From NCBI GenBank assembly GCA_031257835.1, contig JAIRNY010000026.1, positions 1-43,024 on the forward strand: a stretch of DNA of 43,024 bases. Direction: 5' to 3'. The notes beneath the pieces are model-generated. The model did not search any database and was not told the DNA's origin. It saw only the letters and a list, made by a program, of their open reading frames with translations. Origin of the DNA: Candidatus Endomicrobiellum cryptotermitis. Lineage in GTDB: Bacteria > Elusimicrobiota > Endomicrobiia > Endomicrobiales > Endomicrobiaceae. Positions 2,470-20,621 of the stretch are shown here, in pieces (position 1 is the stretch's first letter; every line of letters begins with the position of its first letter). Position numbers and translations under genes: made by a program.

Positions 2470-3315
2470 ATGAATTTTCAAGAAATCATTTTTAAACTAC
2501 AACAATTTTGGGCAAAACAAGGTTGTTTGATATGGCAACCTTACGATTTAGAAAAAGGTGCTGGAACATTTAATCCTGTCACTTTCTTGCGCGCTCTAGG
2601 ACCAAAACCTTGGAATGTAGCTTATGTAGAACCTTCAAGAAGGCCAACTGACGGCAGATATGGAGAAAACCCAAACAGGTTACAACATTTTTATCAATTC
2701 CAAGTACTTATGAAACCTGTTCCTAAAGATATACAAACTATTTATTTAAAAAGTTTAAAAACTATAGGGCTAGACCCTAAAAAACACGATATAAGATTCG
2801 TCGAAGATGACTGGGAGTCTCCTACGCTTGGGGCTTGGGGACTTGGGTGGGAAGTATGGGTTGATGGAATGGAAACTACACAATTTACATATTTTCAACA
2901 AGTTGGTGGCATATCACTAAACCCAATATCAGCTGAAATTACGTACGGTATTGAACGTTTAGCACTGTATGTACAAAAAAAAAATAGTGTTTACGACTTA
3001 CAATGGAATGATGAGTTAACATATGGAGACATACATAAGGAAGATGAAATAGAATGGTCTCATTACAATTTTGAACATGCTGACACTAGTATATTAAAAC
3101 AACATTTTGCAGATTGGGAAAAAGAAGCACAAAAACTTAGCAAAAAAAATTTGCCACTGCCTGCTTATGATGCTGTAATGAAATGTTCTCACTTGTTCAA
3201 TTTGTTAGACGCTAGGGGAGCAATTTCTGTATCTGAAAGAGTTGGATACATTTTAAGCGTACGCACAATCGCAAAAACGGTTGCAGAAAAATATATACAA
3301 ACAATATCTAAATAA
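2470..3315 (+). CDS. glyQ: Glycyl-tRNA synthetase alpha subunit
   Basis: The catalytic subunit of the bacterial (alpha-beta)2 glycyl-tRNA synthetase, which activates glycine and charges tRNA-Gly. At 281 residues it is a little shorter than the usual ~290-300. It opens with the family hallmark [17 protein letters not shown]. The class II motif 2 region ([21 protein letters not shown], about residues 57-77) and the [11 protein letters not shown] segment near residue 159 are intact. The ATG is preceded at good spacing by GAGGA. glyS follows after 20 bases, so the two subunits are co-transcribed. This is the heterotetrameric form, not the single-chain archaeal/eukaryotic type. Nothing in the frame suggests decay. 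Confidence 0.98.
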
Positions 3316-3335
3316 CATATAAATCGGAGCACATA

Positions 3336-5450
3336 ATGAGCACAGCAAATATTCAAACCGCATTACTTGAAATAGGTGTAGAAGAAATTCCTACGTCTTA
3401 CATTGACCCTGCTTTAGACCAAATTAAACAGTTTGCAACTAAAACTCTTACAAATTATGGTTTAAATTTTAACAACATAAAAGCTTACGCTACACCTAGG
3501 AGACTTGTGCTAATTATTGAGGATCTTCATGAAAAAAGTAACGACATAACTGAAGAACTTTTAGGACCTTCTATAAAAGCTGCAAAAGATATTAATGGCA
3601 ATTTTACAAAAGCAGCCTTAGGATTTGCCACAAAAAATGGTACTACAGTAGAAAAACTACAAACAAAAGTCACTGAAAAAGGTGAATATCTCTGTTTTAC
3701 AAAAAAAATTAAAGGTGAAAAAACACAAAAACTTTTAAGAACAATTTTTTCTGAAATTATAAAAAGTATAAGTTTCCCTAAAAGTATGACTTGGGAAGAA
3801 AGTGGCTTTAAATTTGCTAGACCTATAAGGAACATAGTTGCTTTATTTGGCAAAAATATAATTAAGTTTAAAATTGCAGACGTTACATCCTCTAATTGGA
3901 CAATAGGGCTTCATTCTTACGATAACAGAAAAATAAAAATAGATTTACCTGAAAACTATCTATCTATATTAAAAAATAAATCTGTAATAGTAAATCAAGA
4001 TGAGAGAAGAAAAGAAATAGAAAGTTCTATTAAATCTTCCATTAACAATATAGGCACCATATTGCCTGACCAAACACTTATTAACGAAGTAAATTATCTT
4101 GTAGAGTATCCTACTTCAATTTGTTGTTCTTTTGATAACAAGTACCTTAACCTTCCTAAAGAAGTTTTAACAGTATGTATGAGAAAAAGTCAAAAGTGTT
4201 TTGCTGTAAATGACAAAAACGAAAATTTTTCAAACCATTTTGTAGGAATAAAAAACGGTATTTCAACATATCAAGATATAGTTAAAGAAGGTTATCAAAA
4301 AGTTGTCTCAGCAAGACTTGCTGATGCAGAATTCTTTTATAACAATGACTTAAAAAATGGTTTAGAAAATAATATTGAAAAGTTAAAAGGTGTTGTGTTT
4401 CACAAAGAAATAGGAACTGTTTACGAAAAGGTTTTACGTATAAAACAGATTGCTTTGTTCTTGAATAAAGAATTCAATTTAAATGTAGATAGTGTTTTAA
4501 TAGAAAAAGCTGTAATGTTGTCCAAAGCAGATTTAGTAAGTGAAATGGTTTTTGAATATCCCCAACTGCAAGGGATAATGGGTAAAATTTATGCTTTAAA
4601 ACTTAAAGAAAGTTCAGAAGTTGCACAAGCATTACAAGAGCACTACTTTCCATTAACTTCGTCTGGAAGTTTACCAACATCCAAACTAGCTTCTATAATA
4701 TCTATGGCAGACAAAATAGACACTTTAGCAACAAATTTTTCTATAGGTTTAGAACCGTCAGGTTCAGCAGACCCTTACGGTCTTAGAAGAACAGCCATGG
4801 GTTTTATAAGAATAGCTATAGAAATAGTGCCATGGGAAGATTTATCGCAAGTAATAAAGTATGTTTTTGAGTTTCTTCCAGATCATATAAAAAATAACAT
4901 AACAGCAACAAACCTTCAAGAGAAATTAACAAACTTTCTATGGCAAAGAATAGAAAGTCTTATTGAAACTGAAGGATTTGATTCTTCTGAAATTAAAGCT
5001 GTTATAAATGAATCAAAAATATATGGAATTAAAAAACTTGCTTCATTAAAATTAAAACTTTTATCTTTACAAAAAGCAAAACAAAAAGGGGATTTTACTT
5101 CTGTTGCTGGCGTGTTTAAAAGAATAAACAACATTTTAAATCAAGCAAAAAAACAAAATATAAAAATTAAAAATACAGTAGACACATCTTTACTTAGCGA
5201 AGAGTCAGAAAAAAATCTCTTTGAAAAAGCTACAATTTCAAAAGACCTAATTGAAAAATATACAACAAACAATGATTACGATAAAATATTTGACACAGCC
5301 TTAGAGCTAAAAATGAGTATTGATTCTTTTTTTGATAAAGTTATGATTATGGTAAATGAAGAAAATATTAAACTTAATAGAATTTCTCTTTTAATGTACA
5401 TAAAAAATATATTTTCTGGTTTTATAGATTTTTCTATATTGCAGAAATAA
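3336..5450 (+). CDS. glyS: Glycyl-tRNA synthetase beta subunit
   Basis: The 704-residue beta subunit, needed for tRNA recognition by the glyQ-encoded catalytic chain. It starts with the conserved LLEIGVEEIPTSYI, followed by the YATPRRLVLII segment near residue 50. The HD-like core shows EYPQLQGIMGKIYA (about residue 409), GSADPYGLRR (about residue 478), and a C-terminal anticodon-binding-like helical region. The length is close to the ~690 residues typical of the family. An SD-like GGAG lies 9 bases before the ATG. The gap to glyQ is 20 bases, so a two-gene operon is likely. No obvious terminator hairpin follows the stop. Confidence 0.98.
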   Translation: MSTANIQTALLEIGVEEIPTSYIDPALDQIKQFATKTLTNYGLNFNNIKAYATPRRLVLIIEDLHEKSNDITEELLGPSIKAAKDINGNFTKAALGFATKNGTTVEKLQTKVTEKGEYLCFTKKIKGEKTQKLLRTIFSEIIKSISFPKSMTWEESGFKFARPIRNIVALFGKNIIKFKIADVTSSNWTIGLHSYDNRKIKIDLPENYLSILKNKSVIVNQDERRKEIESSIKSSINNIGTILPDQTLINEVNYLVEYPTSICCSFDNKYLNLPKEVLTVCMRKSQKCFAVNDKNENFSNHFVGIKNGISTYQDIVKEGYQKVVSARLADAEFFYNNDLKNGLENNIEKLKGVVFHKEIGTVYEKVLRIKQIALFLNKEFNLNVDSVLIEKAVMLSKADLVSEMVFEYPQLQGIMGKIYALKLKESSEVAQALQEHYFPLTSSGSLPTSKLASIISMADKIDTLATNFSIGLEPSGSADPYGLRRTAMGFIRIAIEIVPWEDLSQVIKYVFEFLPDHIKNNITATNLQEKLTNFLWQRIESLIETEGFDSSEIKAVINESKIYGIKKLASLKLKLLSLQKAKQKGDFTSVAGVFKRINNILNQAKKQNIKIKNTVDTSLLSEESEKNLFEKATISKDLIEKYTTNNDYDKIFDTALELKMSIDSFFDKVMIMVNEENIKLNRISLLMYIKNIFSGFIDFSILQK

Positions 5451-5496
5451 TTTTTCTACAAACATCGTCACTGTAAGTTGGTTTAGTATAGATGCC

Positions 5497-5694
5497 ATGC
5501 TAGACGGTGCAGAAATGTTAGTACCTATTGACAATGAAGGGAATGCAATATTGTCAATAGAAATTATTCACAGTCATGACAACCACATAATTTTTAACGT
5601 ACCAGTTTCTCCAGATCTGGTACGTAACACTATTACTACACGTCGTTTAACTAATAAATTAACAATCAACACAACAATGAAAGACAACAAATAA
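5497..5694 (+). CDS. Small unrecognised ORF, possibly a gene fragment
   Basis: A 65-codon frame between glyS and the convergent rpsA. I do not recognise it. Composition is protein-like rather than random: it includes LVPIDNEGNAILSIEII and a threonine-rich tail ending in a lysine-rich end. The frame stays open upstream of the ATG (TNIVTVSWFSIDAM...) into the end of glyS, without any start or ribosome binding site. That suggests the 3' end of a formerly longer gene whose front was lost, but a chance ORF is also possible. No signal peptide or membrane segment is visible. Confidence 0.25.
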   Translation: MLDGAEMLVPIDNEGNAILSIEIIHSHDNHIIFNVPVSPDLVRNTITTRRLTNKLTINTTMKDNK

Positions 5695-7472: not shown

Positions 7473-8348
7473 TTAAATTCTTCTAATATTCCCTTTTATA
7501 TTATCGCCAATTTCTTTTACTTTAATTTCAACATTTTTTATTATCCAGTCAGGAGTGGACGCCCCTGCAGTCAACCCAACAGTAGAAATATTTTTAAACC
7601 AACTCTTCTTTAAATCCTTAAAAGTTTCTATATGGTAAGTTCTAGCTTTACAAGAACATATCTGCGCAAGTCTAGTAGTATTACCAGAATTTTTACCACC
7701 TATAACTATCATTAAATCTACATTACAAGCAAGCTCCTCTGCAGATTGCTGTCTATCCAAAGTTGCTCTGCATATAGTGTTATATACTGCTGTCTTATGA
7801 TTTTTACTTAAAATATTTACTATATTATTAAAATTTTCAGAAGTCTGCGTTGTTTGGCTTACAATACTTAAATTTTTACTGCCTTTAAATATTTTTGCTT
7901 CTTGGGGAGTTTCTATAACAACACACTTTTTATTACTATAAGAAACCAACGCAACTACTTCAGGATGAATTTTTTCTCCTACAATAATATTATTTGAATT
8001 TTCAACTGTCTCGTTATTACTCAACTCTTTTACCACAGCTTGAGCTCTTTTTACAAAAGGACACGTAGAATCAATAACGTTAATATTTTTATTTTCATTA
8101 AGTTTCTTATGAATGTCAAAAGGAATACCGTGCGTACGTAAAATTACATACCCATCTCGTATTCTACTTACAGATTTCAAAGTTTTTACACCTTGCTTTT
8201 CAAGACGCTTCACTTCTTGAGGATTATGAATAATTGGACCTAAAGTATAAACTTTAGATTTATTTTTTAAAGTCTTCTCAGCAATTTCTATTGCTCTTCT
8301 AACACCAAAACAAAAACCAGCATTTTTAGCCACTTTAATTTTTAACAT
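7473..8348 (-). CDS. ispH: 4-hydroxy-3-methylbut-2-enyl diphosphate reductase
   Basis: The last enzyme of the MEP isoprenoid pathway. It reduces HMBPP to IPP and DMAPP with a 4Fe-4S cluster. The 291-residue chain shows the three cluster cysteines in AGFCFGVRRAIEIA (residue 13), STCPFVKRAQ (near 95) and TICRATLDRQ (near 193). It also shows the conserved histidine segments RTHGIP and KIHPEV, the TQTT loop, the GGKNSGNTTRL phosphate-binding segment and the C-terminal GLTAGASTPDW. All catalytic landmarks are present. The gene lies 33 bases after plsC and 18 before rpsA on the same strand. Retention implies that isoprenoids are still made by the cell itself. Confidence 0.96.
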   Translation of the reverse strand: MLKIKVAKNAGFCFGVRRAIEIAEKTLKNKSKVYTLGPIIHNPQEVKRLEKQGVKTLKSVSRIRDGYVILRTHGIPFDIHKKLNENKNINVIDSTCPFVKRAQAVVKELSNNETVENSNNIIVGEKIHPEVVALVSYSNKKCVVIETPQEAKIFKGSKNLSIVSQTTQTSENFNNIVNILSKNHKTAVYNTICRATLDRQQSAEELACNVDLMIVIGGKNSGNTTRLAQICSCKARTYHIETFKDLKKSWFKNISTVGLTAGASTPDWIIKNVEIKVKEIGDNIKGNIRRI

Positions 8349-8381: not shown

Positions 8382-8972
8382 TTACATTTTAGAAATCTCT
8401 TCTAAAACTCTTTGCGACAAAACAACATAATCATTTTTAGTAAACTCTTTTGGTGGGTATATAGGCCTTCCAAATTTAATTTTTATTTGCTCAAGTTGTA
8501 ACATCTTATTGGTATTTTCTATTTTCACAGGAATTAAAGGTACTTGTGCATTACAAGCCACCATTGCAGGGCCAGCCTTTGCTACACCTAACTTACCATC
8601 TTTTGAACGTGTACCTTCAGGAAACATCAACAACAAATGCCCACTTTCTAATAATGAAAAGGCATGTTTCATTGCATTCACGTCTTGTCTACCTCTTTTT
8701 ACAGGAAAAGCATTTGTACGCTTTATCGTCCAACCAAAAACTGGTATATCAAATAACTCTTTTTTAGCCATAAAATATAGAGGTCTTCTCATCGCAGAAC
8801 CTGCCAAAGGAGGATCAAAAAAACTCATATGATTTGGTGCTATAATAGCGCCCCCTGTTTTAGGGATATTTTCCACACCTTTAATGTCCCACCTATAAAA
8901 CAATTTAAACATTATCCTAAACATTTGCCTGCCAAGTAAAAATAAGAATGTAGATTTTTCTCTTATTTGCAT
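8382..8972 (-). CDS. plsC: 1-acyl-sn-glycerol-3-phosphate acyltransferase
   Basis: This enzyme acylates lysophosphatidic acid to phosphatidic acid at the inner membrane. The 196-residue protein has the catalytic HX4D motif in NHMSFFDPP (H48, D53) and the glycerophosphate-binding FPEGTRS (residues 117-123). A basic-hydrophobic N-terminus (FLFLLGRQMFRIMFKLFYRW) could anchor it to the membrane. Length is at the short end of the family. It overlaps the 3' end of the broken aroA by 10 bases, so it must share its transcript. In many bacteria cmk sits between aroA and plsC here; no cytidylate kinase is seen. The frame is intact. Confidence 0.95.
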   Translation of the reverse strand: MQIREKSTFLFLLGRQMFRIMFKLFYRWDIKGVENIPKTGGAIIAPNHMSFFDPPLAGSAMRRPLYFMAKKELFDIPVFGWTIKRTNAFPVKRGRQDVNAMKHAFSLLESGHLLLMFPEGTRSKDGKLGVAKAGPAMVACNAQVPLIPVKIENTNKMLQLEQIKIKFGRPIYPPKEFTKNDYVVLSQRVLEEISKM

Positions 8973-9855
8973 ATATTTTTTAAAACCTCATAAAACCCCG
9001 GGAAGGAAGTATTTACACAATTTGAATCTTTAACTATAGTTTCACCTCTAGCTATTAAAGAAGCAATTGCTAAAGTCATCGCCACTCTATGGTCCTCAAA
9101 ACTATCCAAAAGAGTACCTGTTAAATGCAAACTGCTAGAACCGTTTATAATGAAACCGTCTTCTAAAGATTCTACTTGAACACCAAGTTTTTTAAATTGA
9201 CTAGCAATCGCAAAAATTCTATCACTTTCTTTTAGTCTAAGTTCTTTAGCGCCTGAAATTCTAGTAATGCCCTCTGCCTGCGTTGCAACAAGTACGAACA
9301 CTGGTATTTCGTCTACCATTCTTGGCACAATATCGGAACTAACATTTATAGCTTTAAGTTTTGAATATTTCACGTTAATGTCACAAACTGGTTCATTAGA
9401 AACTTCCCTTAAGTTTGTTAAAGTAATATTTGCGCCCATTTGTAACAAAGGGTGCATAACCCTCTACCCATTGGTCTTTTTGAAAGGCTCTGGTCACCTG
9501 TAATAAAAGATTCAAAATTTTGTCCAGCAAGAATTCCAGAAAGTAACCTGGCTGTTGTTCCGGAGTTTCCTGCATAAAATTCATACTTATCATCTTTAGG
9601 CGGTGGAAAATCTAAACCTCCACCTTTTATGTGCAAAGTTCCCTTTTCTATTTTAATTTGTGTACCCATCTGACGAAAAACTTCTATAGTTCTATTACAA
9701 TCACCTGAAGGTAAGTAGTTCCTAACTATAGATTCTCCACTAGCAAGAGAAGAAAGCATAATAGCTCTATGAGTTATAGACTTATCTGCTGGTACTTCTA
9801 TTACACCTGACAAATTATTAACTTTTTCTAATTTAACATCCACTTTTATACCCAT
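8963..9855 (-). pseudogene. aroA: EPSP synthase (aroA), internal deletion plus frameshift
   Basis: This gene once encoded 5-enolpyruvylshikimate-3-phosphate synthase, the sixth shikimate-pathway step. The first part (9418-9855) has VPADKSITHRA, the GNSGTTARLL loop and GDQSLSKRPMGR. There the frame breaks: two extra bases at 9461-9462 move reading into the second part (9457-8963), which resumes as VMHPLLQMGANI and continues through MVDEIPV, ELRLKESDRI and DHRVAM. Two lesions are visible. One is the frameshift. The other is a missing block of about 140 codons between the two places where the family has a PL/LxxMGA segment. The lost block normally carries the VASAQ and SRDHTERM segments needed for catalysis. 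About 297 codons remain against roughly 430 in intact enzymes. A split gene or programmed frameshift cannot rescue the missing part. Confidence 0.92.
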
Positions 9856-9968: not shown

Positions 9969-10854
9969 CTATAAAAGCTTCCTACCAACAGCATTTGCAA
10001 CTAATTCAAGAGCTTTCATCAACCGCCTAAATTGTTCAGGCAGCAAACTTTGAATTCCATCAGAAAGAGCCTTTTCAGGCTCAGGATGAACTTCTATAAT
10101 AAGTCCATCAGCTCCTGCAGCTATACAAGCTTTAGCCATTACCCCAACATGCTCACTTATACCTATACCATGAGACAGATCTAAAACAACAGGCAGATGA
10201 GAAATTTTTTCAATACAGGCACAGCATTTAAATCCATTGTAAATCTTGTAGATGTTTCAAAAGTTCTTATTCCTTTTTCACACAAAATAACATTATAATA
10301 CCTTGAGAAAGAATATACTCTGCAGAAAGTAAAAGTTCTTTTATTTTTGTAGCCATACCCCTTTTTAAAAGTACAGGTTTTTTTTGTTTACCAATAGCTT
10401 TTAGTAAATCATAATTCTGCATATTTCTTGCTCCAATTTGAACAATATCACAATATTTACTTGTTCTACAGTAATAGCTTCACTTATTACAAGCATATGA
10501 AAATTATTACTCGCACCTTTCCTTTCATATACTTTAAACCTTTTTCACCAAGACCTTGAAAAGCATATGGAGAACTTCTAGGCTTATAAGCTCCTCCTCT
10601 AAGTATTGTACCTCCCGCATCTTTAACAATTTTAGCTATGTGAAATATCATTTTTTATTTTCGACAGCACAAGGTCCTGCAATAACGTGTATTTTTTGGG
10701 CAATCTCAACATTCTTGTTAATTTTTACTATTGTGTTTTCTTTTTTAAATTCTCTCAATGAAAGTTTTACTATCTTTCTATCAATTTGATCTATCAAGTC
10801 TCTACCGCACTTTAAATTAGATATCACAACAACCTCCATACCACAAAAATCCAC
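9969..10854 (-). pseudogene. DAHP synthase pseudogene (Thermotoga-like class with N-terminal ACT/ferredoxin-like piece)
   Basis: Reading the minus strand with frame changes gives a nearly complete 3-deoxy-D-arabino-heptulosonate-7-phosphate synthase, the entry step to the shikimate pathway. In order come [106 protein letters not shown], and a clean stop at 9969-9971. At least four frameshifts lie between these blocks: after VENK (~10665), after KGLKYMK (~10525), near 10460 and near 10290. The C-terminal 60 codons are still open. The N-terminal regulatory domain looks shortened. It sits upstream of the broken aroA on the same strand, so the two probably formed an aromatic biosynthesis operon that died as a unit. 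Confidence 0.88.
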
Positions 10855-11258: not shown

Positions 11259-12344
11259 TTATATTACGAATTTAGAAACAATCTCATTAAAAAGAAATTC
11301 GTAGCCTTTAGCAAATTTTATTACATTATCATTTTGCACTAAAACTTTTTCATCTATACATTTTTTAAGTACGTTTTGATAATACTTATTATTAAAATGT
11401 TTAATACTTACTCCTTCTTTTAAAAGTCTAAGCCCTAACATAATAGACTCAAAGGAGTATAATTTATCATCAATATACTCTTTTTCAAACTGAGCATTTA
11501 AACCTTTATTTACCAACTTTATATATTCTTTTATATTTTCAACATTCTTATATCTAAACCTATTTAAATAACCGCTTGCTCCTGCACCAATTGCAATATA
11601 TTCCTTATTACGCCAATAATTTGTATTATGGAAAGACTCGTTACCACTTCTAGCCCAATTAGAAATTTCGTAATGGTTATATCCATTCTGCTCTAAAAAC
11701 TCCACGCTAAAATCATACATATCTCTTTGAACATATTCAGACGTAACAATTCCTCTTTTATAAAACATCGTATCTTTTTCTATAGAAATAGGATATAAAG
11801 AAAGATTTGCACTGTTAAAACTTAAAACTTTTCTTAAAGCATTTTCCCAATCTTTTAGAGTTTGATGTGAAATCCCGTACATCAAATCAATACTAATATT
11901 GCTAAAACCAACTTGTCTTGCAAGATCATAAGCATTACAAAAATTGTTAAAATTATGAACTCTACCTAACAAACTAAGAAGTCTATCATCTACAGATTCA
12001 AGACCAATACTTAACCTATTTACATTATAATTTTTTAAAATAGTCAATTTTTCTAGAGTTGTAGAATCTGAATTCAATTCAAAAGTAAATTCAAAAAGTT
12101 TAGAAAGATCAAAATTATCATTTATACAACATAATAACTTTTCAATTTGTTTAGAAGACAAAATAGACGGCGTACCTCCGCCAATATACACAGAATCTAA
12201 AGCTTTGTCTTTAAAATCCAAACTATGCTTAATTAAAGCGTTTATATATTCGTCTGCAAAATCTTTCTCATATCTAATTGAAAAAAAATTGCAATAAAAA
12301 CATTTCTGCTTACAAAATGGTATATGAATATATAAACCCAACAT
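11259..12344 (-). CDS. hemW: Radical SAM heme chaperone HemW / coproporphyrinogen-III oxidase-like protein
   Basis: A 361-residue radical SAM protein of the HemN/HemW family. The N-terminus is compact, with LYIHIPFCKQKCFYCNFFS; the CxxxCxxC cysteines (C11, C15, C18) bind the 4Fe-4S cluster that cleaves SAM. The GGGTPS segment and the RLSIGLESVDDRLLSLLGR segment are typical. The chain starts right at the radical SAM domain and lacks the long N-terminal extension of true HemN, so HemW (heme insertion chaperone) is the better name. No Shine-Dalgarno is visible before the ATG at 12344, but the IHIPFC motif needs this start. The 78-base gap upstream holds a short hairpin (TTTACAT paired with ATGTAAA, 12366-12382). 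Confidence 0.88.
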   Translation of the reverse strand: MLGLYIHIPFCKQKCFYCNFFSIRYEKDFADEYINALIKHSLDFKDKALDSVYIGGGTPSILSSKQIEKLLCCINDNFDLSKLFEFTFELNSDSTTLEKLTILKNYNVNRLSIGLESVDDRLLSLLGRVHNFNNFCNAYDLARQVGFSNISIDLMYGISHQTLKDWENALRKVLSFNSANLSLYPISIEKDTMFYKRGIVTSEYVQRDMYDFSVEFLEQNGYNHYEISNWARSGNESFHNTNYWRNKEYIAIGAGASGYLNRFRYKNVENIKEYIKLVNKGLNAQFEKEYIDDKLYSFESIMLGLRLLKEGVSIKHFNNKYYQNVLKKCIDEKVLVQNDNVIKFAKGYEFLFNEIVSKFVI

Positions 12345-12422: not shown

Positions 12423-13606
12423 TTAAGCAGCTCCGAGGATATCTTTAACAGCATTAGTAGAAGTTTTAGTTCTACGTTTTGCATCTTCTATTATCCTTTT
12501 AAACGATATCTTGTTTATCGAATAGTTTAACACTGCTAAACTTATAGCTATTTGCCTACTTTCTGTTTCTTTTGACTCTATCAAACCTGACTTTTCTACT
12601 CTGTTTACATAACTTGCCATTACTTCTCTTTGCTCTTCAAATGTTGATGTAGACGATTCCTCTTCCATCAACCTCTCTGCTTCTTTAAAATATTCTTGTA
12701 AACTTCCATTACTATCAAACTTCTCTGGACTTGCTAAATACCCTTTTACTAATACCACCCCTAACGCCTGCCTGTCTGTCACACTGTTTATATTATACAC
12801 TTCTTGCGTAAAGTCAAATGCTCTCATATACCTGTTTACAAGCGATGCTTCTACTAATCCCCTTGCAAATCCTACCGCTTCCAGCACTCGCTCTGCCCCC
12901 TGCTCGTCTACTCCTGCTCCTTTCTAACACTCCTTCTCCCTTCACCGCCTCCTCACACCTCTTCCCTAATCCCTTCTTTAACTTCCCTCTCAACTCTTTG
13001 ACTATCTCTTCATCACTCCTCCCTTTATAATACTCCCCTTTCACCACCGCTTCACTTATCCTTCCCAGCTCTTCCTTATTTATACTTTCCCCTCCCAACT
13101 CCTTGCTACCCTCTATATACCTAAACGACCTTTCTACACTCCCTACACTTCCGTCTAACCTTCCCATCTCTTTCATTAACCCTTCCATCGCACTATCTCC
13201 AATCTCTCCCAGCTTCTTATCTAATCTTTCTATCTGTTCCCTATACTTCTCTTCCACCCCTTTCAGCTTTCCTACTAACTCTTCTCTCTTCTCTTTCCCC
13301 TCTACCCTATACCCTTTCGCCCTCAACTTCTCCTCTATCTTACCTATATTATCTTTCATCAGCTTCGCTGCTCTCTCCTTTATCCCTCCTCCTTCTCCTA
13401 TCCCTTCTCCCAACCCACTTCCTACTCCCTCTATCAACCCCTTCCAATCCTCCCCCTTCATACAAGTTATACCCTCTCTTCTTTAACTCTTCCTTCAACT
13501 TCCCTATCCCCTCTTTAAATCCCTTCCCTAGCAGCCCCTCTACCCCTTCCTTGATAAAATCAGACAAACTTTTCTTATCATCTGAAACATCAAACATCTT
13601 TCCCAA
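12423..13606 (-). pseudogene. 3' end of the giant gene: charged G/K/E-rich part and C-terminal helical domain
   Basis: Three overlapping frames (13606-13349, 13461-12814, 12887-12423) form one reading. The first runs to KRGYNLY, then slips near 13460 into EDWKGLIEGVGSGLGEGIGEG and a long charged helical stretch. A slip near 12925 joins GVLE to GAGVDEQGAERVLEAVGFARG and the C-terminal domain, which ends ...KDILGAA at 12423. Codon use is odd: many GGG, GAG and AAG codons in a genome that elsewhere prefers GGA, GAA and AAA. The tail after about 12730 returns to ordinary composition. Confidence 0.6.
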
Positions 13607-13629
13607 GTAATTTCTGAAAGAGAGAAGAA

Positions 13630-15047
13630 TTAAAAAATACTTGTAATACCCAAAATTACAAGCGCCATTGGGACTAACATATTTACTACACCTTTAAAAC
13701 CATCTTTAGGATTAAAATTAAGAGCTGAAGTTATAACACTACTGCCAAAACCACCAATTTGATATGAATTTATAACACTAAACATTCCAAAATAGTTCGG
13801 GGAGTTATTTTGTGAGTTGTTTGATGAATTATTAGTTTCAAGCTGCTGATTTGACAAAACAGATTTTGCCTTATTAAGGTTGACCAAGAACATTGAACTA
13901 ACAGTTGTAGGTAACTGATATAATCTGCTTTGCTCAAAACCGTACGCAGGTCTGTTATATGTAGTTTTTCCAGGCTCTACAGTCTCTACTTCACCTTTCT
14001 TTGAAATTTTTGATAATAAATTTTTTAAAAACCTTTTTATCAAATCCATTTTCAGCCAAATCTCGCAAAAAAGCAAGAATCATCACAATTTCACCACTAA
14101 AACTTAAAACATAAGATGATACAAACTTGATCACCAACATAACAGTTCCAACTATTGAACCTAATGGCACAAAGAAATAGACAACATAAAAAGTAACCAC
14201 TAAAAGAACAAGCGCTATTAAAACAATTGCAGCTTTAAATTTTTGTTTAGGGTTCGTCAATCTTCCAAAATCTAGATTAAAAACTTTGCTAAGTAAGAAA
14301 CCAACTGCACTCTTAAAATTACGCAAAATTGACCCACTAGTGTCTATATAAATCTCTTCCATTAAATCTTGAACAGACTTTACTTCTTCCTTTAGTTCAC
14401 CTCTTTTGAGTTTTAAATAATCTGAATTTAAAGCTTGACTAAACTCAAAGAGAACGATCTTTGATTTTTCTTCAGAAATGTAATCATAATAAGCTGCTAT
14501 GGCCTTTATTAAATCAACACTACCATTTTCAACATCCACAATATCTTTATTTTGCATATATTTAGGCAAATTTAAGATTTTTACTATTAAAGCCAGGCTT
14601 TATGTCAAAAATTTTTGATATTGCAGGGAATTTATTTTTAAAGTCTTCTATAGACAAGTTATAAAGACTTGGACCTTATACAAAAAAATTAAATAAATCT
14701 TGCCATTTTTTATCTGTCATAGCATCAATAGAAGAGTCTTCTGTTGTACTATCTAAAAGTGTTTGCTTTTTCAACAATAACACTTTTTCCATTGAATTTA
14801 TTTTATCTGCTACTTTAAGTTGCGTTAATTTTATTTGTTTTTGCAATCTCTGTACTTCTGTTTCCTTCTCAAACATATTAAATTTTAAAGCAACAACTTG
14901 TATAAGTTTCTCTAAACGCTCTTTTCTTTTTATAAGTTTAGCTCTTTCATAAGATTGTTCTAAATCTAATGCACGACTTTCAAACAGTTTTAATCTCTCT
15001 GTTAGCTTTGAAATTTCATTATTAACAAATATTATTCCACCTTCATT
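13630..15047 (-). pseudogene. Giant-gene fragments: coiled coil, membrane segments and Asn/Ser-rich linker
   Basis: After the TAA at 15048 the same frame continues as coiled coil (SKLTERLKLFESRALDLE ... MFEKETEVQRLQKQIK) to another stop at 14676, and then, in the same frame, to about 14555. A slip leads into 14569-13991, which has two hydrophobic helices (AAIVLIALVLLVVTFYVVYFF and SIVGTVMLVIKFVSSYVL). A further slip near 14050 leads into 14076-13630, with an Asn/Ser-rich linker (ETNNSSNNSQNNSPN) and a hydrophobic end (MLVPMALVILGITSIF). In the +1 frame that helix extends as LILLSFRNYLGK into the next fragment, so one T was probably lost from a T-run near 13620-13630. Confidence 0.6.
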
Positions 15048-16361
15048 TTATATTTGCTTTTCAACAGTCTTTTCTAAAGATAACCGTAGCTCTGTGTTAA
15101 GTTTTTTTATTTGTGTAGTTAAATCATCAATTTTTGTTGACACTGTTTTTATGTCATTTTGAAGTGTTTGTAAATTATTTAGATTAGTACTATTTTCGCT
15201 AATCTCATTACCTATTGTTAAAGTAAAATAAGTAGCCGTTTTCAAATCCGTTTTTGTAACTGGATTCATTTGCAATAGAATATAAATTATTGATTCTCGT
15301 AAAGAAAAAGATGCTTTCTGTCCCGATTCCCCAAAACTAGAAACATCTATATTTAACTTATCATTTACCCCAAAAGCGTCTAATCCTAGTTGTCTAATCC
15401 ATATGGATTAGACAACAAATAAAAACCTACATCCTTTGCAATTTTTTTTAATGCTTCTTCTCTTTTTTCTGTAGATATTGATTGAAAACTTTCAGGCAGC
15501 AACAGTTTTATTTTGTTAAACTCACCTAAAACTACTTTTTGATACAAAACTTCATTAAACAAATCTAAGTAAGAATTTACAGTTTTGCTATTTGCAATAT
15601 CCTGCATACCTGTAACATCTATAATGTTTAAATCTAACATACGTTTTAACACTATTGCAGAAGATATAGGTAAAGCTTAACTTAAAACATTTTGTAAATT
15701 TTCTCCTTTTTTAAACTTTTCAAATAAGTTTTCTTCTGCTTTAACAATCAAAGCTTTTTTAAGACAATCCAACATAAAAGTAGAATTATTCTTTTCGTAA
15801 CTCTTAGATTTAGCATCTATACCATCAACTATATCTCTTACATCTGTATTTTCTTTTTTAAAATAATTTAACAAATCATTTATTACAACTATATCCTTAT
15901 AACCACTTGTATACAATCCTGTAGTATCAAAAGAATTACTTCTAAAAGTTGAAAAATCTGGAGCCCTTACTAATTTTTAGTTTTACCATCGTAAGAATTT
16001 ATGTCATCAGTTAATTGCTGGGCTACATATTCATCTTCATCAATAGTACCAAAACTCATTAATATAGCTTTTGTTATTACAGCCTGAGGGTTTAACTCAT
16101 GAAACTCTTTTATTTTTTGAACTAAAAACTTGTCCTTAATATATTTAAAATATTGTTAAAATCCTTCAAATCAGTCGACGAGAATCTTGAAAGTATATTT
16201 TTGATCTTAAAAGATAAGCTTCCTATTAAGTTCCTTGTAATTACACAAAAAAAGTCAAGCAAATCCATAACTGAAATAAACATACTTTCGATTAAAGGGG
16301 CACTTTTATGTATCCATTTTATTATTATATCAGAAGACTTTATATATGATTGACGTCTCAA
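15048..16361 (-). pseudogene. Giant-gene central fragments joined by stops and slips
   Basis: Several short open pieces chain together here: 16361-16122, a second frame with KEFHELNPQAVITKAILMSFG (about 16140-15980), 15916-15677, 15652-15386 and 15275-15048. Between 15677 and 15652 only one in-frame TAA interrupts a continuous reading (NVLS-stop-ALPISSAIVLKR). Between 15386 and about 15375 a 14-base duplication shifts the frame; afterwards reading resumes with GLDAFGVNDKLNIDVSS. The piece at 15275-15048 is a heptad-rich coiled coil (TVSTKIDDLTTQIKKLNTEL). Another single TAA at 15048 separates it from more coiled coil downstream. Confidence 0.6.
15389..15416. repeat. 28-bp perfect palindrome with a third copy of one arm
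   Basis: The arms GTTGTCTAATCC (15389-15400) and GGATTAGACAAC (15405-15416) flank ATAT and form a perfect palindrome. A further copy of GTCTAATCC lies at 15378-15386, 14 bases from the matching arm. On the minus strand this reads as a 14-base tandem duplication inside the giant pseudogene. The coding sequence for LSNPYGLD is itself nearly palindromic, so a replication slip at a hairpin is the simplest explanation. Confidence 0.75.
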
Positions 16362-16399
16362 TTCGTGACGTACAAAAACTTGTAATAAATTTTGATTTA

Positions 16400-17164
16400 T
16401 TATGTTCCCATTTTTATCAAAAAATTTAGCTTTAAAAAATCGTAATTAATTGATATCCTCCTTTCTTTAGACAACATTGAAATACTTTCATTGTCAGAAA
16501 AAGCCTCGCTAAAACCAGATATCTTTTGAATTAGTTCAGTCTCGTTTGAATCTAACACTGTGTCTATCGCTCTACTTTTATCAATATTTAAAGCTTTAGA
16601 AACAAACTCTTGTACTAAATCTAGTGGAAGAGCTTTGGCTATCTTTTTAAAGATGACAACACTCTCTAAACCATCAGGAATGTCAGTTTGACTAAGAGAT
16701 TTTTTAGACAAAAAGCCTTTCATGTAAAACTGAAACCCAATAAATGGAATTGAGCCTAAAACAATCAAAAGTGGAACTAAAAACCATATGAAAGAAGAGA
16801 GTGGAGAAAAAATAATAGCCATACTTATTGCTACGCCTACAGCCATAGTGATATAAAACCCCAATTTTGCTCTAAAATAGTCAATAATAGAATCAAGAAA
16901 AGATTTTTGTTTGGTTTGTTGAGGTTGTGCTACAATATTTTCCACAAAAGCTTGACCATCATAGACATATTCCTTAACATTGTTGTCTTTAGTAACAAAA
17001 AGCCGTACTTGGTCTAAATTATTTATATCGCCAGAAAGTTCAGCCTTTATTACTTCAGATTCAAAAGCTTTTAGTATTTGATTGATAACCTGTAACTTGT
17101 ATCCTTTCTGTGTTAAAATACCCGATGCCTCAATAAGCCCTTGCTCTACTGTAACTTCAGACAA
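16400..17164 (-). pseudogene. Giant-gene fragment with a membrane hairpin
   Basis: A 254-codon open piece. Its apparent start is internal: sequence upstream to about 17250 is the same frame (LVVTPNVGSGIKLAQDAYYALAKEQ). It contains two strongly hydrophobic helices (about residues 98-120 and 124-148: GFYITMAVGVAISMAIIF and FIWFLVPLLIVLGSIPFIGF), flanked by polar helical sequence. The frame ends at 16400, where a T-run slip moves reading into FFDKNGNIINQNLL and on into the next fragment (16361-16122). It has no RBS of its own. Confidence 0.6.
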
Positions 17165-17386
17165 AGGTAATGTTGCAAGTGCCTGGAAAAGTATTTTACT
17201 TTGCTCCTTAGCTAAAGCATAATATGCATCTTGAGCTAACTTTATCCCACTACCAACGTTTGGAGTTACAACTAAATTAAGATATACCCTTATCAGATAA
17301 CAACTCTGATACCCCTTGGGTATGAAAACCCCCAGTAACTACTATATATATATTTTTTTGCATCTTTAAGAGACCTTACAACTTTA

Positions 17387-18787
17387 TCAACAGAAGGCAA
17401 ATGAAACATTTTCTATTTGACTAATCTCTTCATTTAAACCATAAATATTATTTATAAAATAATTATTTCTACTAAGATTTACTTCATAAAATTGGTTTGC
17501 TATCTTTTCATATAGCTCTAACATGTCAATTTTTTTATTATCAACATATTTAACCCACAGTCTTTTATATTTTTTTATATTATTTTTATAATACTTATAG
17601 TCGTCAGATGTAATTTTACTAGTTAGATAATCCTTTAAATACCGTTCAAAAGTAGCTAAAAATGCTATGTCCTTTTGTCCATCATCACTTCCAAGAGCTA
17701 TACTGATTTCCCCTTTTAAGTTTTCTTCTTCTTTAACCATTTCCAAAGAATTAATTTTTTGACTCAACTCTATATAATTTAAAAATTTATTTAAATTAGG
17801 GAAATCCTTAGATAAATCTAGATTGTTTTCTCTTGCAAGTTTAACTAAATATGTATACAACTTATCTGTTTCATTAAAGCTAGCTGTAGCATCAAGTAAC
17901 ATCTTATACACGCCATAGGGCATTAATCCTCTCAACTTTAAAATAAACTCTTTCAACTCACTAGTTGTTTTATCATAATTTATTTCTCTTCCCAATTTTA
18001 AAAGCATAATATAAGTTTTTATATTCTCATATTTATCTATATCTATACCAAAACTATTGGCATATTTGTCCATAAGATGAAAATACTTTTCTGAACTCAT
18101 TGTCCAAAATTCCGATTCAGAGTAGATTTCTTCAACCTTCTTTTGTTTACTATTGTAGTATAAAGACTTAAGATATTTTATATCATCATACATCCTTGTT
18201 ATTATATTCAAGATTTCTGATTGATAGTTTAAAATATCTCCAAATCTTTTTAAGTTTTCCAAATAAGGTTCTTTGTTTTCTAACCCCTTTACCAAGTCTG
18301 TACGATTACTAATAGCAGAATAATACTCCACACCTGTTAACATCCCAGTTGCAAAAATGGAATCTATTATTTTTTCGCCACTATTTTTTATTTTAGTAAG
18401 CCAAGAATTATCTAATTGTCCATATGCACCTTCTAAATATACACTCTTTACTCCATAACTTTTATCAAAAGAAGATATAATATTGCTTATATTTTTTTGC
18501 ACATCTGGATGCAAATGTAAATCTTGTATATTTATTACTACAATATCACTACCTGTATAATTTACATTTGTTATTTTTCCATAGGAATACGGTAAAGTAA
18601 AATCATCAAATATTTGTTTGTATTGTGCATCTAACCTTGTTTGTTCTAACACTTGAGCAACAGCTTGACCATAAACATAAGAAAGAAGAAAACAATTAAC
18701 TAATACTATGGATATAATTTTTACACACGTTAGCTCCATAAAATAGGATTTGGCCTTTAACTTAGCCTTTGAAAATAAAAAAAACAT
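17387..18787 (-). pseudogene. 5' fragment of the giant gene: signal anchor and HIQD/GGFH-type domain
   Basis: This is the longest open piece, 466 codons. It starts with a basic stretch and a hydrophobic helix (VKIISIVLVNCFLLSYVYG), so export or membrane anchoring is likely. The INIQDLHLHP and YLEGAYGQLD motifs follow at about residues 85-130, then a mostly helical region. The true start was probably the ATG at 18818 (MKKEV...). It joins this frame across a T8 run near 18785-18792, where a one-base slip explains the present mismatch. At the 3' end the frame closes at 17387, but the next frame continues with LPSVDKVVRSLKDAKKYI and then, after two more slips, with VVTGGFHTQGVSELLSDKG. An annotation pipeline may call this piece as a stand-alone hypothetical protein. 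Confidence 0.7.
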
Positions 18788-18818
18788 TTTAAAAGTCTTG
18801 TTTTAACCTCTTTTTTCA

Positions 18819-19472
18819 TGTGTTCAAATCTCTTCTCTTTTATTATTTATATTTTTCAAATTGTGTATATATAAAATGCAACAACCTACCTTTATAACTA
18901 TAAAGCTAGGTTATTATAATATTACTTTTTATTATTTTGTATAGTTTGTCTTTAGGTATACCTCTAGGCAACACCAAACAGTAAGAATTAAAAATAATAA
19001 AATAAATCTTATAAATTCTCTATTTTTTAAAAAATAAAAATTAAAACTATCATTTATATCAACACAAAAACTTCTGCTACACCTACAAACTTTTGACAAA
19101 CTGTTTAACGGCAATACCATCATTGTGAAATTAATTAATTTATCTGCTTTTTGTTGATTGCCATTTTGAGCAAAACAACAACATTTTACAAATTCTTCAC
19201 TTATTAAATTATTTTCATATACACATAAACCAAATATACCATTTGTTATTTTGATCACTGGAATATTTATACTTTTATAAACCTTTATGTACACTGGACA
19301 TACAGCAAATAAAAACACCTTCTTAAATTACACTAAAAAACTTTACCTAACAAAATTGATTCTCATGTATACTTTATACAAAAATCAAAAAGAAAAGAAA
19401 ATACTTTATAAATTTTGTACAATATTTAAACTAGGAAGAAACTTTCAAATTAGCAAATCATATACTAATTTT
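18819..19472. other. Region between giant relic and lptF; hairpin at 18883-18912
   Basis: About 650 bases with no confident gene. A strong imperfect hairpin lies at 18883-18912: AACCTA pairs with TAGGTT and CTTTA with TAAAG around a TAACTA-like loop. It could terminate the weak minus-strand ORF at 18932-19318. The right part contains the lptF upstream region; a plus-strand frame is open from 19287 into lptF, but its extra 62 codons are not family-like. No tRNA is seen. Confidence 0.4.
18932..19318 (-). CDS. Doubtful small cysteine-rich protein with a C-terminal membrane helix
   Basis: A 128-codon minus-strand frame that I do not recognise. It has clustered cysteines (KCCCF near residue 45, VCRCSRSFC near residue 77) and a convincing C-terminal hydrophobic helix (FIRFILLFLILTVWCCLEVYL). 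A good Shine-Dalgarno before the ATG is lacking. It overlaps the possible 5' region of lptF on the other strand. It may be a real orphan gene, a decayed one or a chance ORF; the hairpin just downstream at 18883-18912 is the only support beyond length. Confidence 0.25.
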   Translation of the reverse strand: MFLFAVCPVYIKVYKSINIPVIKITNGIFGLCVYENNLISEEFVKCCCFAQNGNQQKADKLINFTMMVLPLNSLSKVCRCSRSFCVDINDSFNFYFLKNREFIRFILLFLILTVWCCLEVYLKTNYTK

Positions 19473-20621
19473 ATGATAAAAAAATTACATTTATATATTA
19501 TTAAAGAGTTTTTCATTTCTTTTATTTTCGGAATATTAGTATTTTCACTTCTCCTTATTCTAAACATAGCATTTGAGCTAGCAGAACTTGCTTTATCTAA
19601 AGGTGTCGCTATTTTTCTTGTCTTAAAATTATTTGTTTTCTACTTACCTAACATTCTAACACTCTCTATACCAATGTCAGTACTATTTGGCGTTTTACTT
19701 TCATACGGCAAATTATCTTCAGATAACGAAATTACGGCCATGAAATCTTGTGGGCTAAACTATAAAACATTAACAATTCCGGTAATATATTTCGTATGTA
19801 TTCTTTCAATATTTTTAATTTTTTTTAACCACTTTATAGCCCCTACAATAAGCAATCACTCTAAACATCTTTACGAAGAAATTATAACAAAAAGTCCCCT
19901 AGCTAGATTTGATGCAAAATCAATCACAAATATTGGAAATTATAGTTTATATGCAAACAAAGTAAACAACAAAACAAATTCTTTATTTGGTCTTAATATA
20001 TACAAATTCGAAAATAATGATGAAGATACAAGTAAAAAAAACAAAAAGAATATTTTGCCTCAAAACGACAAAGAAAGTTGGAGAATATCTGCTGCTAGCT
20101 CCTCAGTAAAAGCTTACGATAACGGAATACAACTTACATTACACAATGGATATTTACAAAAAGCAAACCCAGCTAACATGTCAGAAATTACACATATGAC
20201 TTTTAAAAAATATATCTTTTTTATTTCTCTTGGAGAAAACATTAAAAAAGATACTATTACACTTGCATCAATACAATCTCCTCAACTTCTAAAAATCATA
20301 AATGAGTGTAAACAACAGGCAATGCCATTGTCATCATACGTAAATTATCAAAGAGACTTCTGGCTTAGATGGGTTTTTGCAATAGCTCCAATTGCTTTTG
20401 TTATTATCGCATTACCTATAGGGTTTATAAACAACAAAAGAGGTAAAGTAATGGGCTTTGGGGTAAGTTTAGGAATAACTATGCTTTATTATATGCTTTT
20501 TCTTATATCTACAAGTTTAGGTGAAAAAGAATATGCTCCTTTAAGTATAATAATGTGGTTACCTAACTTTGTAACTACGTTAATAGGCTCATATTTGTTT
20601 TTTAAAATGGTAAAAAAATGA
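19473..20621 (+). CDS. lptF: LPS export permease LptF
   Basis: One of the two membrane subunits of the LptBFG ABC transporter that extracts lipopolysaccharide from the inner membrane. From the ATG at 19473 the protein has 382 residues. It begins MIKKLHLYIIKEF and has three N-terminal membrane helices, the conserved ILTLSIPMSVLFGVLLSYGKLSSDNEITAMKSCG region, a periplasmic jellyroll-like part, and three C-terminal helices. The frame is open for 62 more codons upstream, but those are polar, unlike the family and without RBS, so I use the later start. No clear Shine-Dalgarno precedes it. The stop overlaps the lptG start (ATGA). Retained LptF and LptG argue for an outer membrane with LPS or a similar glycolipid. 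Confidence 0.92.
   Translation: MIKKLHLYIIKEFFISFIFGILVFSLLLILNIAFELAELALSKGVAIFLVLKLFVFYLPNILTLSIPMSVLFGVLLSYGKLSSDNEITAMKSCGLNYKTLTIPVIYFVCILSIFLIFFNHFIAPTISNHSKHLYEEIITKSPLARFDAKSITNIGNYSLYANKVNNKTNSLFGLNIYKFENNDEDTSKKNKKNILPQNDKESWRISAASSSVKAYDNGIQLTLHNGYLQKANPANMSEITHMTFKKYIFFISLGENIKKDTITLASIQSPQLLKIINECKQQAMPLSSYVNYQRDFWLRWVFAIAPIAFVIIALPIGFINNKRGKVMGFGVSLGITMLYYMLFLISTSLGEKEYAPLSIIMWLPNFVTTLIGSYLFFKMVKK

Follow-up and report, generated by a model that had tools for sequence, protein, structure and literature searches.

Between an intact hemW-like gene and an intact lptF, the window (the whole stretch of DNA analysed, 43,024 nucleotides; G000:C20:1-43024) carries a run of minus-strand fragments at positions 12423-18818 that are the co-linear remains of one gene, preceded by the remnant of a small companion gene (Table 1). 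The source genome, of 1.05 Mb in 28 contigs, is 87% complete. Endomicrobiellum lives in termite flagellates, and the host setting of this genome is most likely the inside of termite-gut protists. The nearest named homologues belong to Candidatus Endomicrobiellum incisitermitis, roisinitermitis, guadaloupense, and siamense, which makes this organism very probably a member of that genus. Endomicrobiellum has been described as an endosymbiont genus (PMC11257099), and a text search of the available part of that article found neither giant genes nor pseudogenes mentioned.

When the intact orthologue from a genome of the same genus (G009, 3840 aa) was used as a tblastn query, ordered matches were obtained along window positions 18787-12423 on the minus strand. 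This orthologue is an uninterrupted 3,840-codon open reading frame (ORF; locus L036) that likewise lies between lptF/lptG and hemW. In three further sister genomes with the same neighbours, contigs break within the giant gene. The initial annotation had taken the fragments for a single giant gene, now dead, and had proposed a search for an intact orthologue next to lptF/hemW; both the ordered matches and the same-genus gene bear this out. Its size estimate of about 2,100 codons (6.4 kb) was too low, as the intact orthologue puts the parent gene at ~11.5 kb.

Table 1. Features of the relic locus and its intact flanks, by position in the window (G009 aa, residues of the intact orthologue)
Feature	Position	Strand	Evidence and remarks
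lptF, intact flank	19470..20621	+	PF03739, E 6.3e-71
Companion relic	18911..19290	-	~60 first codons absent; frame change near 18977; LPRGIP readable at 18955-18971
N-terminal domain: signal-like hydrophobic segment and TIKI/ChaN-like domain, with QDLH and LEGAYG motifs	17387..18787	-	Longest remaining open frame, 466 aa
GGFHTQG motif of the N-terminal domain, shifted frame	17277..17375	-	GGFH invariant: G484, G485, H487 of alignment
Post-domain fragment with membrane hairpin	16400..17338	-	G009 aa up to 802; hydrophobic segment 650-686 of G009
Fragments in two frames	15970..16445	-	tblastn: G009 aa 792-900 at 16439-16101, 879-940 at 16167-15976
Fragment	15386..15976	-	tblastn: G009 aa 941-1141 at 15976-15392
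Helical/coiled fragment	14574..15407	-	tblastn: G009 aa 1138-1406 at 15389-14574
Fragment with membrane segment	13991..14599	-	tblastn: G009 aa 1404-1606 at 14581-14009
K/E/G-rich middle, reduced remnant	12931..14037	-	Low-complexity tblastn matches at 14037-12931; 40% GC, strong purine skew
Last 170 residues of conserved C-terminal domain	12423..12923	-	G009 aa 3671-3840 at 12923-12426; 56% identity to G009; alignment A3
hemW-like radical SAM gene, intact flank	11259..12344	-	PF04055; 94-96% identity to closest sisters

Of the parent gene, the relic retains the last 170 codons and, interrupted by frameshifts and stops, roughly the first 1,600. Two blocks are deleted (~aa 1607-1822 and 2870-3670 in G009 numbering), the second being the ~800-codon deletion that directly precedes the C-terminal piece, and the K/E/G-rich middle is reduced. 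A large deletion junction lies near 14009-14037, where the nucleotide match to the sister genome G017 skips from nt 4833 to 5622. The single-base slips and lone stops first described as joining the pieces are present, but the two large deletions join pieces as well. The N-terminal domain is 91-92% identical to intact sisters, and tblastn places G009 aa 18-802 at 18784-16406. All three segments picked out from the sequence at the outset (DLHLHPDVQ, LEGAYGQLD, and GGFHTQG) were recovered, the last in a shifted frame, and the membrane segments and charged, coiled-coil-like stretches noted with them are likewise visible. Window positions 13001-14000 have a GC content of 40% and a GC skew of -0.59, compared with 29% GC for the genome; both the rise and the skew follow from the Gly, Glu, and Lys codons that abound where the minus strand encodes the middle of the giant.

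The companion is an upstream ORF of ~160-220 codons on the same strand, found directly before the giant in 41 of the 67 loci inspected (L043-L122 flanks); at some giant loci a recognisable companion is absent. At its C-terminus, a hydrophobic stretch leads into the motif L-[PTKA]-R-[GSRN] or a near match to it (LPRG-, LTRR-, and LPRS-like forms), LPRGIP being the commonest. A DNA motif of the LPRGIP type occurs at a single site in the window, within the broken companion, and at none in shuffled sequence.

Two further relics lie on the minus strand of the window: aroA (8966-9846), from which codons ~143-270 are gone, and pheA (9972-10836), which is split over several frames. G009 has an intact ORF for each, and in the sister genomes G031 and G017 the hemW-plsC gap is too short to hold either. 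Their presence beside the dead giant points to decay of the whole neighbourhood.

Decay of the locus

Compared with G017 over positions 14009-18846 (4.8 kb), the relic has 12 indels, nine of them frame-breaking, and three in-frame stops. The pair G031/G017, whose giants are scored as intact in frames that run off contig ends, differs by four indels, all of which preserve the frame; frame-breaking indels are likewise absent from lptF/G and hemW. Frame-breaking lesions, the mark of a pseudogene, are thus found in the relic and in neither the intact relatives nor the flanking genes. The dN/dS of the relic against G017 and G031 is 0.41-0.42, that of the intact pair is 0.33, and lptF and hemW of the same species give 0.14-0.22 (the lptF comparison with G009 being left out). 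By subtraction, dN/dS on the relic branch is ~0.48, which fits a recent death, and the closest intact relatives remain under selection.

The same genome holds a second dead giant of the same family (G000:C4:35583-45533; loci L038, L002-L004), a ~10 kb remnant. Its parent gene had ~8,300 codons; of a repeated ~500-residue module a single copy is left, the internal repeats having apparently collapsed. Multiply broken copies also occur in other species of the genus (G014:C18:71741-73088 and G019:C12:32380-33412), apparently representing other stages of decay.

Assembly or sequencing error in a gene that is intact in the organism might be suspected in an incomplete 28-contig assembly, the more so as giant repeats break the sister assemblies. 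We consider this highly improbable: the lesion counts set against their controls, together with a companion and a second giant that are likewise broken, leave sequencing error no reasonable account of the locus, and in addition the contig is continuous through the large deletions and the dN/dS of the relic is slightly raised. That the fragments are unrelated neighbouring genes, a reading for which their differing frames and the abrupt shift in base composition at 13-14 kb might speak, is refuted with near certainty, since a single intact ORF, found at this site in a relative, accommodates all of them in order.

A family of giants in Elusimicrobiota

We defined the family by its ~480 N-terminal residues and searched 295 Elusimicrobiota genomes with the corresponding profile. 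Matches were found in 65 genomes, including 42 of the 77 Endomicrobiaceae, and reached 78 per genome in distant Elusimicrobiota groups; the longest open frame has 12,656 codons. The resemblance to Elusimicrobiota proteins that the initial annotation had suggested for the relic is borne out by intact relatives in the phylum. Genome shares can be large: 18 copies in G037 total 122,474 codons (367 kb, ~10.8% of 3.4 Mb) and the 17 copies listed for G072 amount to ~9.8% of 1.8 Mb, both shares being estimates based on rounded genome sizes and on frames that contig ends in some cases truncate.

Within Endomicrobiaceae, 14 of the 42 genomes of Endomicrobiellum have any match, ~8 of which look intact with the rest degraded or reduced to traces, compared with 28 of the 35 genomes of other genera, which carry 3-24 matches each. 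This difference agrees with the suggestion that the gene decayed in a host-restricted lineage. However, intact giants persist in other species of this symbiont genus, and no family match occurs in G080, inferred to be free-living (1.6 Mb, single contig), so loss is not a matter of host restriction alone.

Alignment of the G009 giant with an 8,305-codon paralogue pairs aa 9-1060 with 12-1056 and aa 3185-3840 with 7640-8305, with almost nothing in between; judged from such alignments, the ends of the giants are conserved and the middle is variable. Intact members contain ~8-20 hydrophobic segments. Sequence matches to the conserved C-terminal domain (~650 residues, alignment A3) are confined to this genus, apart from a faint co-linear trace in G039. 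At the DNA level, this domain is ~94% identical between two paralogues in G031 and 99% identical over a 139-bp overlap in G017, compared with 67% between the paralogues of G004 (loci L143, L154, L146, L156, L162, and L164). The G031 and G017 values suggest recent gene conversion, and near-identical C-terminal domains produced in this way would explain why sister contigs break within the giants.

No family above cut-off emerged when all fragments were scanned against Pfam and NCBIfam and three intact giants against Pfam. Searches of PDB sequences with profiles of the N- and C-terminal domains yielded chance matches only. Scans of IMG/VR with both domains returned no relatives, and hence no sign of a phage gene.

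The head domain and its possible role

The N-terminal (head) domain begins with a hydrophobic, lysine-containing segment that ends in YGQA and resembles a Sec signal or anchor, from which the head is predicted to lie, probably, outside the inner membrane. In an alignment of 51 relatives, D88, H90, and E118 (D-x-H with a Glu at +28) and the GGFH motif (H487) are invariant. In the TIKI superfamily, VvRRSP has a 2His/2Glu site formed by E3900/H3902/E3930/H4030, and Bcr135 has the His-Glu pair H85/E113 (PMC6254334). The head domain shares the acid-x-His motif with a Glu ~28 residues on, but its first acid is Asp rather than Glu, and it also has the second His near the domain end (GGFH, H487, corresponding to G-N-G-H of ChaN in alignment A4).

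Profiles of the N-terminal domains of Endomicrobia giants and of distant Elusimicrobiota giants align with each other (hhalign 100%, E 8e-39), and all four distant members examined match PF04187 (ChaN), the best at 29.6 bits against a cut-off of 27.7. The PF04187 matches in the phylum fall within ORFs of 1,513-4,771 codons. The 51 members of the Endomicrobia family have no Pfam match beyond chance, the N-terminal domain of the window and the intact Endomicrobiellum proteins match no Pfam or NCBIfam family above cut-off, and hhalign of the Endomicrobia family against ChaN proper is not significant. TraB (PF01963) and Ere (PF05139), considered as sequence bridges, are essentially absent from the phylum.

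AF2 models of two heads, from proteins ~40% identical, have pLDDT values of 84 and 88. Foldseek against the PDB ranked EreC first for both (E 0.44 and 0.041) and listed Bcr135 for both, with HopBA1 and RRSP lower down for the second model. No hit reached E ≤ 0.001 and TM-scores were low, probably owing to a helical insertion of ~300 residues; the recurrence of four TIKI-superfamily members among the hits seems unlikely to be due to chance. Nothing significant was found when a head model was compared with a viral structure library. The identification of the head as TIKI-like has, in our view, good but not final support.

The locus is a recently killed copy of a two-gene cassette that is widespread in Endomicrobia, with distant giant relatives elsewhere in Elusimicrobiota, and we propose, as moderately likely, that it encoded an exported TIKI/ChaN/Ere-like head on an envelope giant. 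The first gene of the cassette encodes the small membrane-tailed companion, and the second the giant, with a putative export signal, the TIKI/ChaN/Ere-like domain, membrane hairpins, a repetitive variable middle and, in this genus, the conserved C-terminal domain. Once exported, the head may cleave peptide or ester bonds through a 2His/2acid site or, in the manner of ChaN, bind haem or another ligand; the hairpins and the coiled, charged helical middle would anchor it and extend it in the cell envelope, and its target could be an envelope component, neighbouring cells, or the protist host. The companion is perhaps needed for export or stability of the giant. Decay would proceed through frameshifts, stops, and the loss of internal blocks, the latter probably by recombination between internal repeats.

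Two other functions deserve weighing. The giants could instead form a structural or adhesive envelope coat, or a tether for cell contact, with the TIKI-like head binding a ligand or haem and having no catalytic role. The many hydrophobic segments and the long, charged, variable middle suit such a role, the Pfam match is to ChaN, the haem-binding branch, and giant ORFs of Omnitrophota have been interpreted as coats and adhesins in the available sections of PMC10066038. We regard this as a real but minority possibility, because the invariance of the His, the Glu, and GGFH across 51 sequences suggests an active site and the Pfam and NCBIfam scans found no adhesin domains. Inter-bacterial or host-directed attack, with the head as a cleaving effector and the remainder as its delivery structure, appears unlikely: some effectors that cleave proteins of the host do carry TIKI-fold domains (PMC6254334), and high copy number and variable middles fit antagonism, but a head placed N-terminally, after a signal-like segment and before membrane hairpins, is unlike known delivered effectors, and the same scans found no toxin domains.

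Extended beyond the window, the proposal of an exported TIKI-like head on an envelope giant leads to a broader one that we favour on balance, namely that these proteins form an undescribed, phylum-wide class of giant envelope proteins with a TIKI-like hydrolase head. In Endomicrobia their genes would share cassettes with that of a membrane-tailed partner bearing the LPRG motif, and the class would be present in dozens of copies taking up about a tenth of some genomes, conserved at its ends and freely evolving in the middle, and progressively lost with intracellular symbiosis.

Giant ORFs with few or no recognisable domains are already known from Elusimicrobiota and Omnitrophota, as far as the accessible portions of the reports go (PMC10066038, PMC11573180, and PMC12057145), and this near-absence of domains has made their function hard to state. 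A literature search, with preprints and most subscription journals outside its scope, returned no paper that links the giants to TIKI/ChaN or to the companion, or that describes the family. What gives a direct handle on such giants is a head that is conserved, testable, and seemingly equipped with an active site, together with the partner gene and a range of species in which the copies are whole, decaying, or missing; the relic itself is a snapshot of a giant gene dying in an endosymbiont. It would be difficult to account for perhaps ~10% of some genomes being given over to the family if it had no strong function.

Among Omnitrophota, Velamenicoccus archaeovorus has a giant ORF of 39,678 aa (Seymour et al. 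2023, PMC10066038). By published description, Omnitrophota giants resemble those studied here in having thousands of residues, several membrane helices, and few annotated domains, and in occurring in some host-dependent bacteria; neither a TIKI-like head nor a companion gene is mentioned in the sections of that paper available to us. Elusimicrobiota, the phylum of the present giants, have been reported to be rich in proteins of >5,000 aa; the same survey (PMC11573180) reports that the huge proteins of this phylum have no COG assignment, and its available text names no family or domain for them.

The Ere family (EreC, Bcr135; PF05139) provides the best structural hits for the two head models, although these are individually not significant, and Bcr135 shares the His-to-Glu spacing of 28 (PMC6254334). 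The head nevertheless has no sequence match to the Ere family, and PF05139 was not found in 120 Elusimicrobiota genomes. ChaN (PF04187) is linked to the head by the distant giants that exceed the Pfam cut-off and by the acid-x-His, Glu, and G-x-H motifs common to both, but the head differs from ChaN in its ~300-residue helical insertion, and the Endomicrobia members lack a match to the ChaN model. ChaN proteins of the same phylum are free-standing and ~270-380 codons long, whereas the head described here fronts proteins of thousands of residues.
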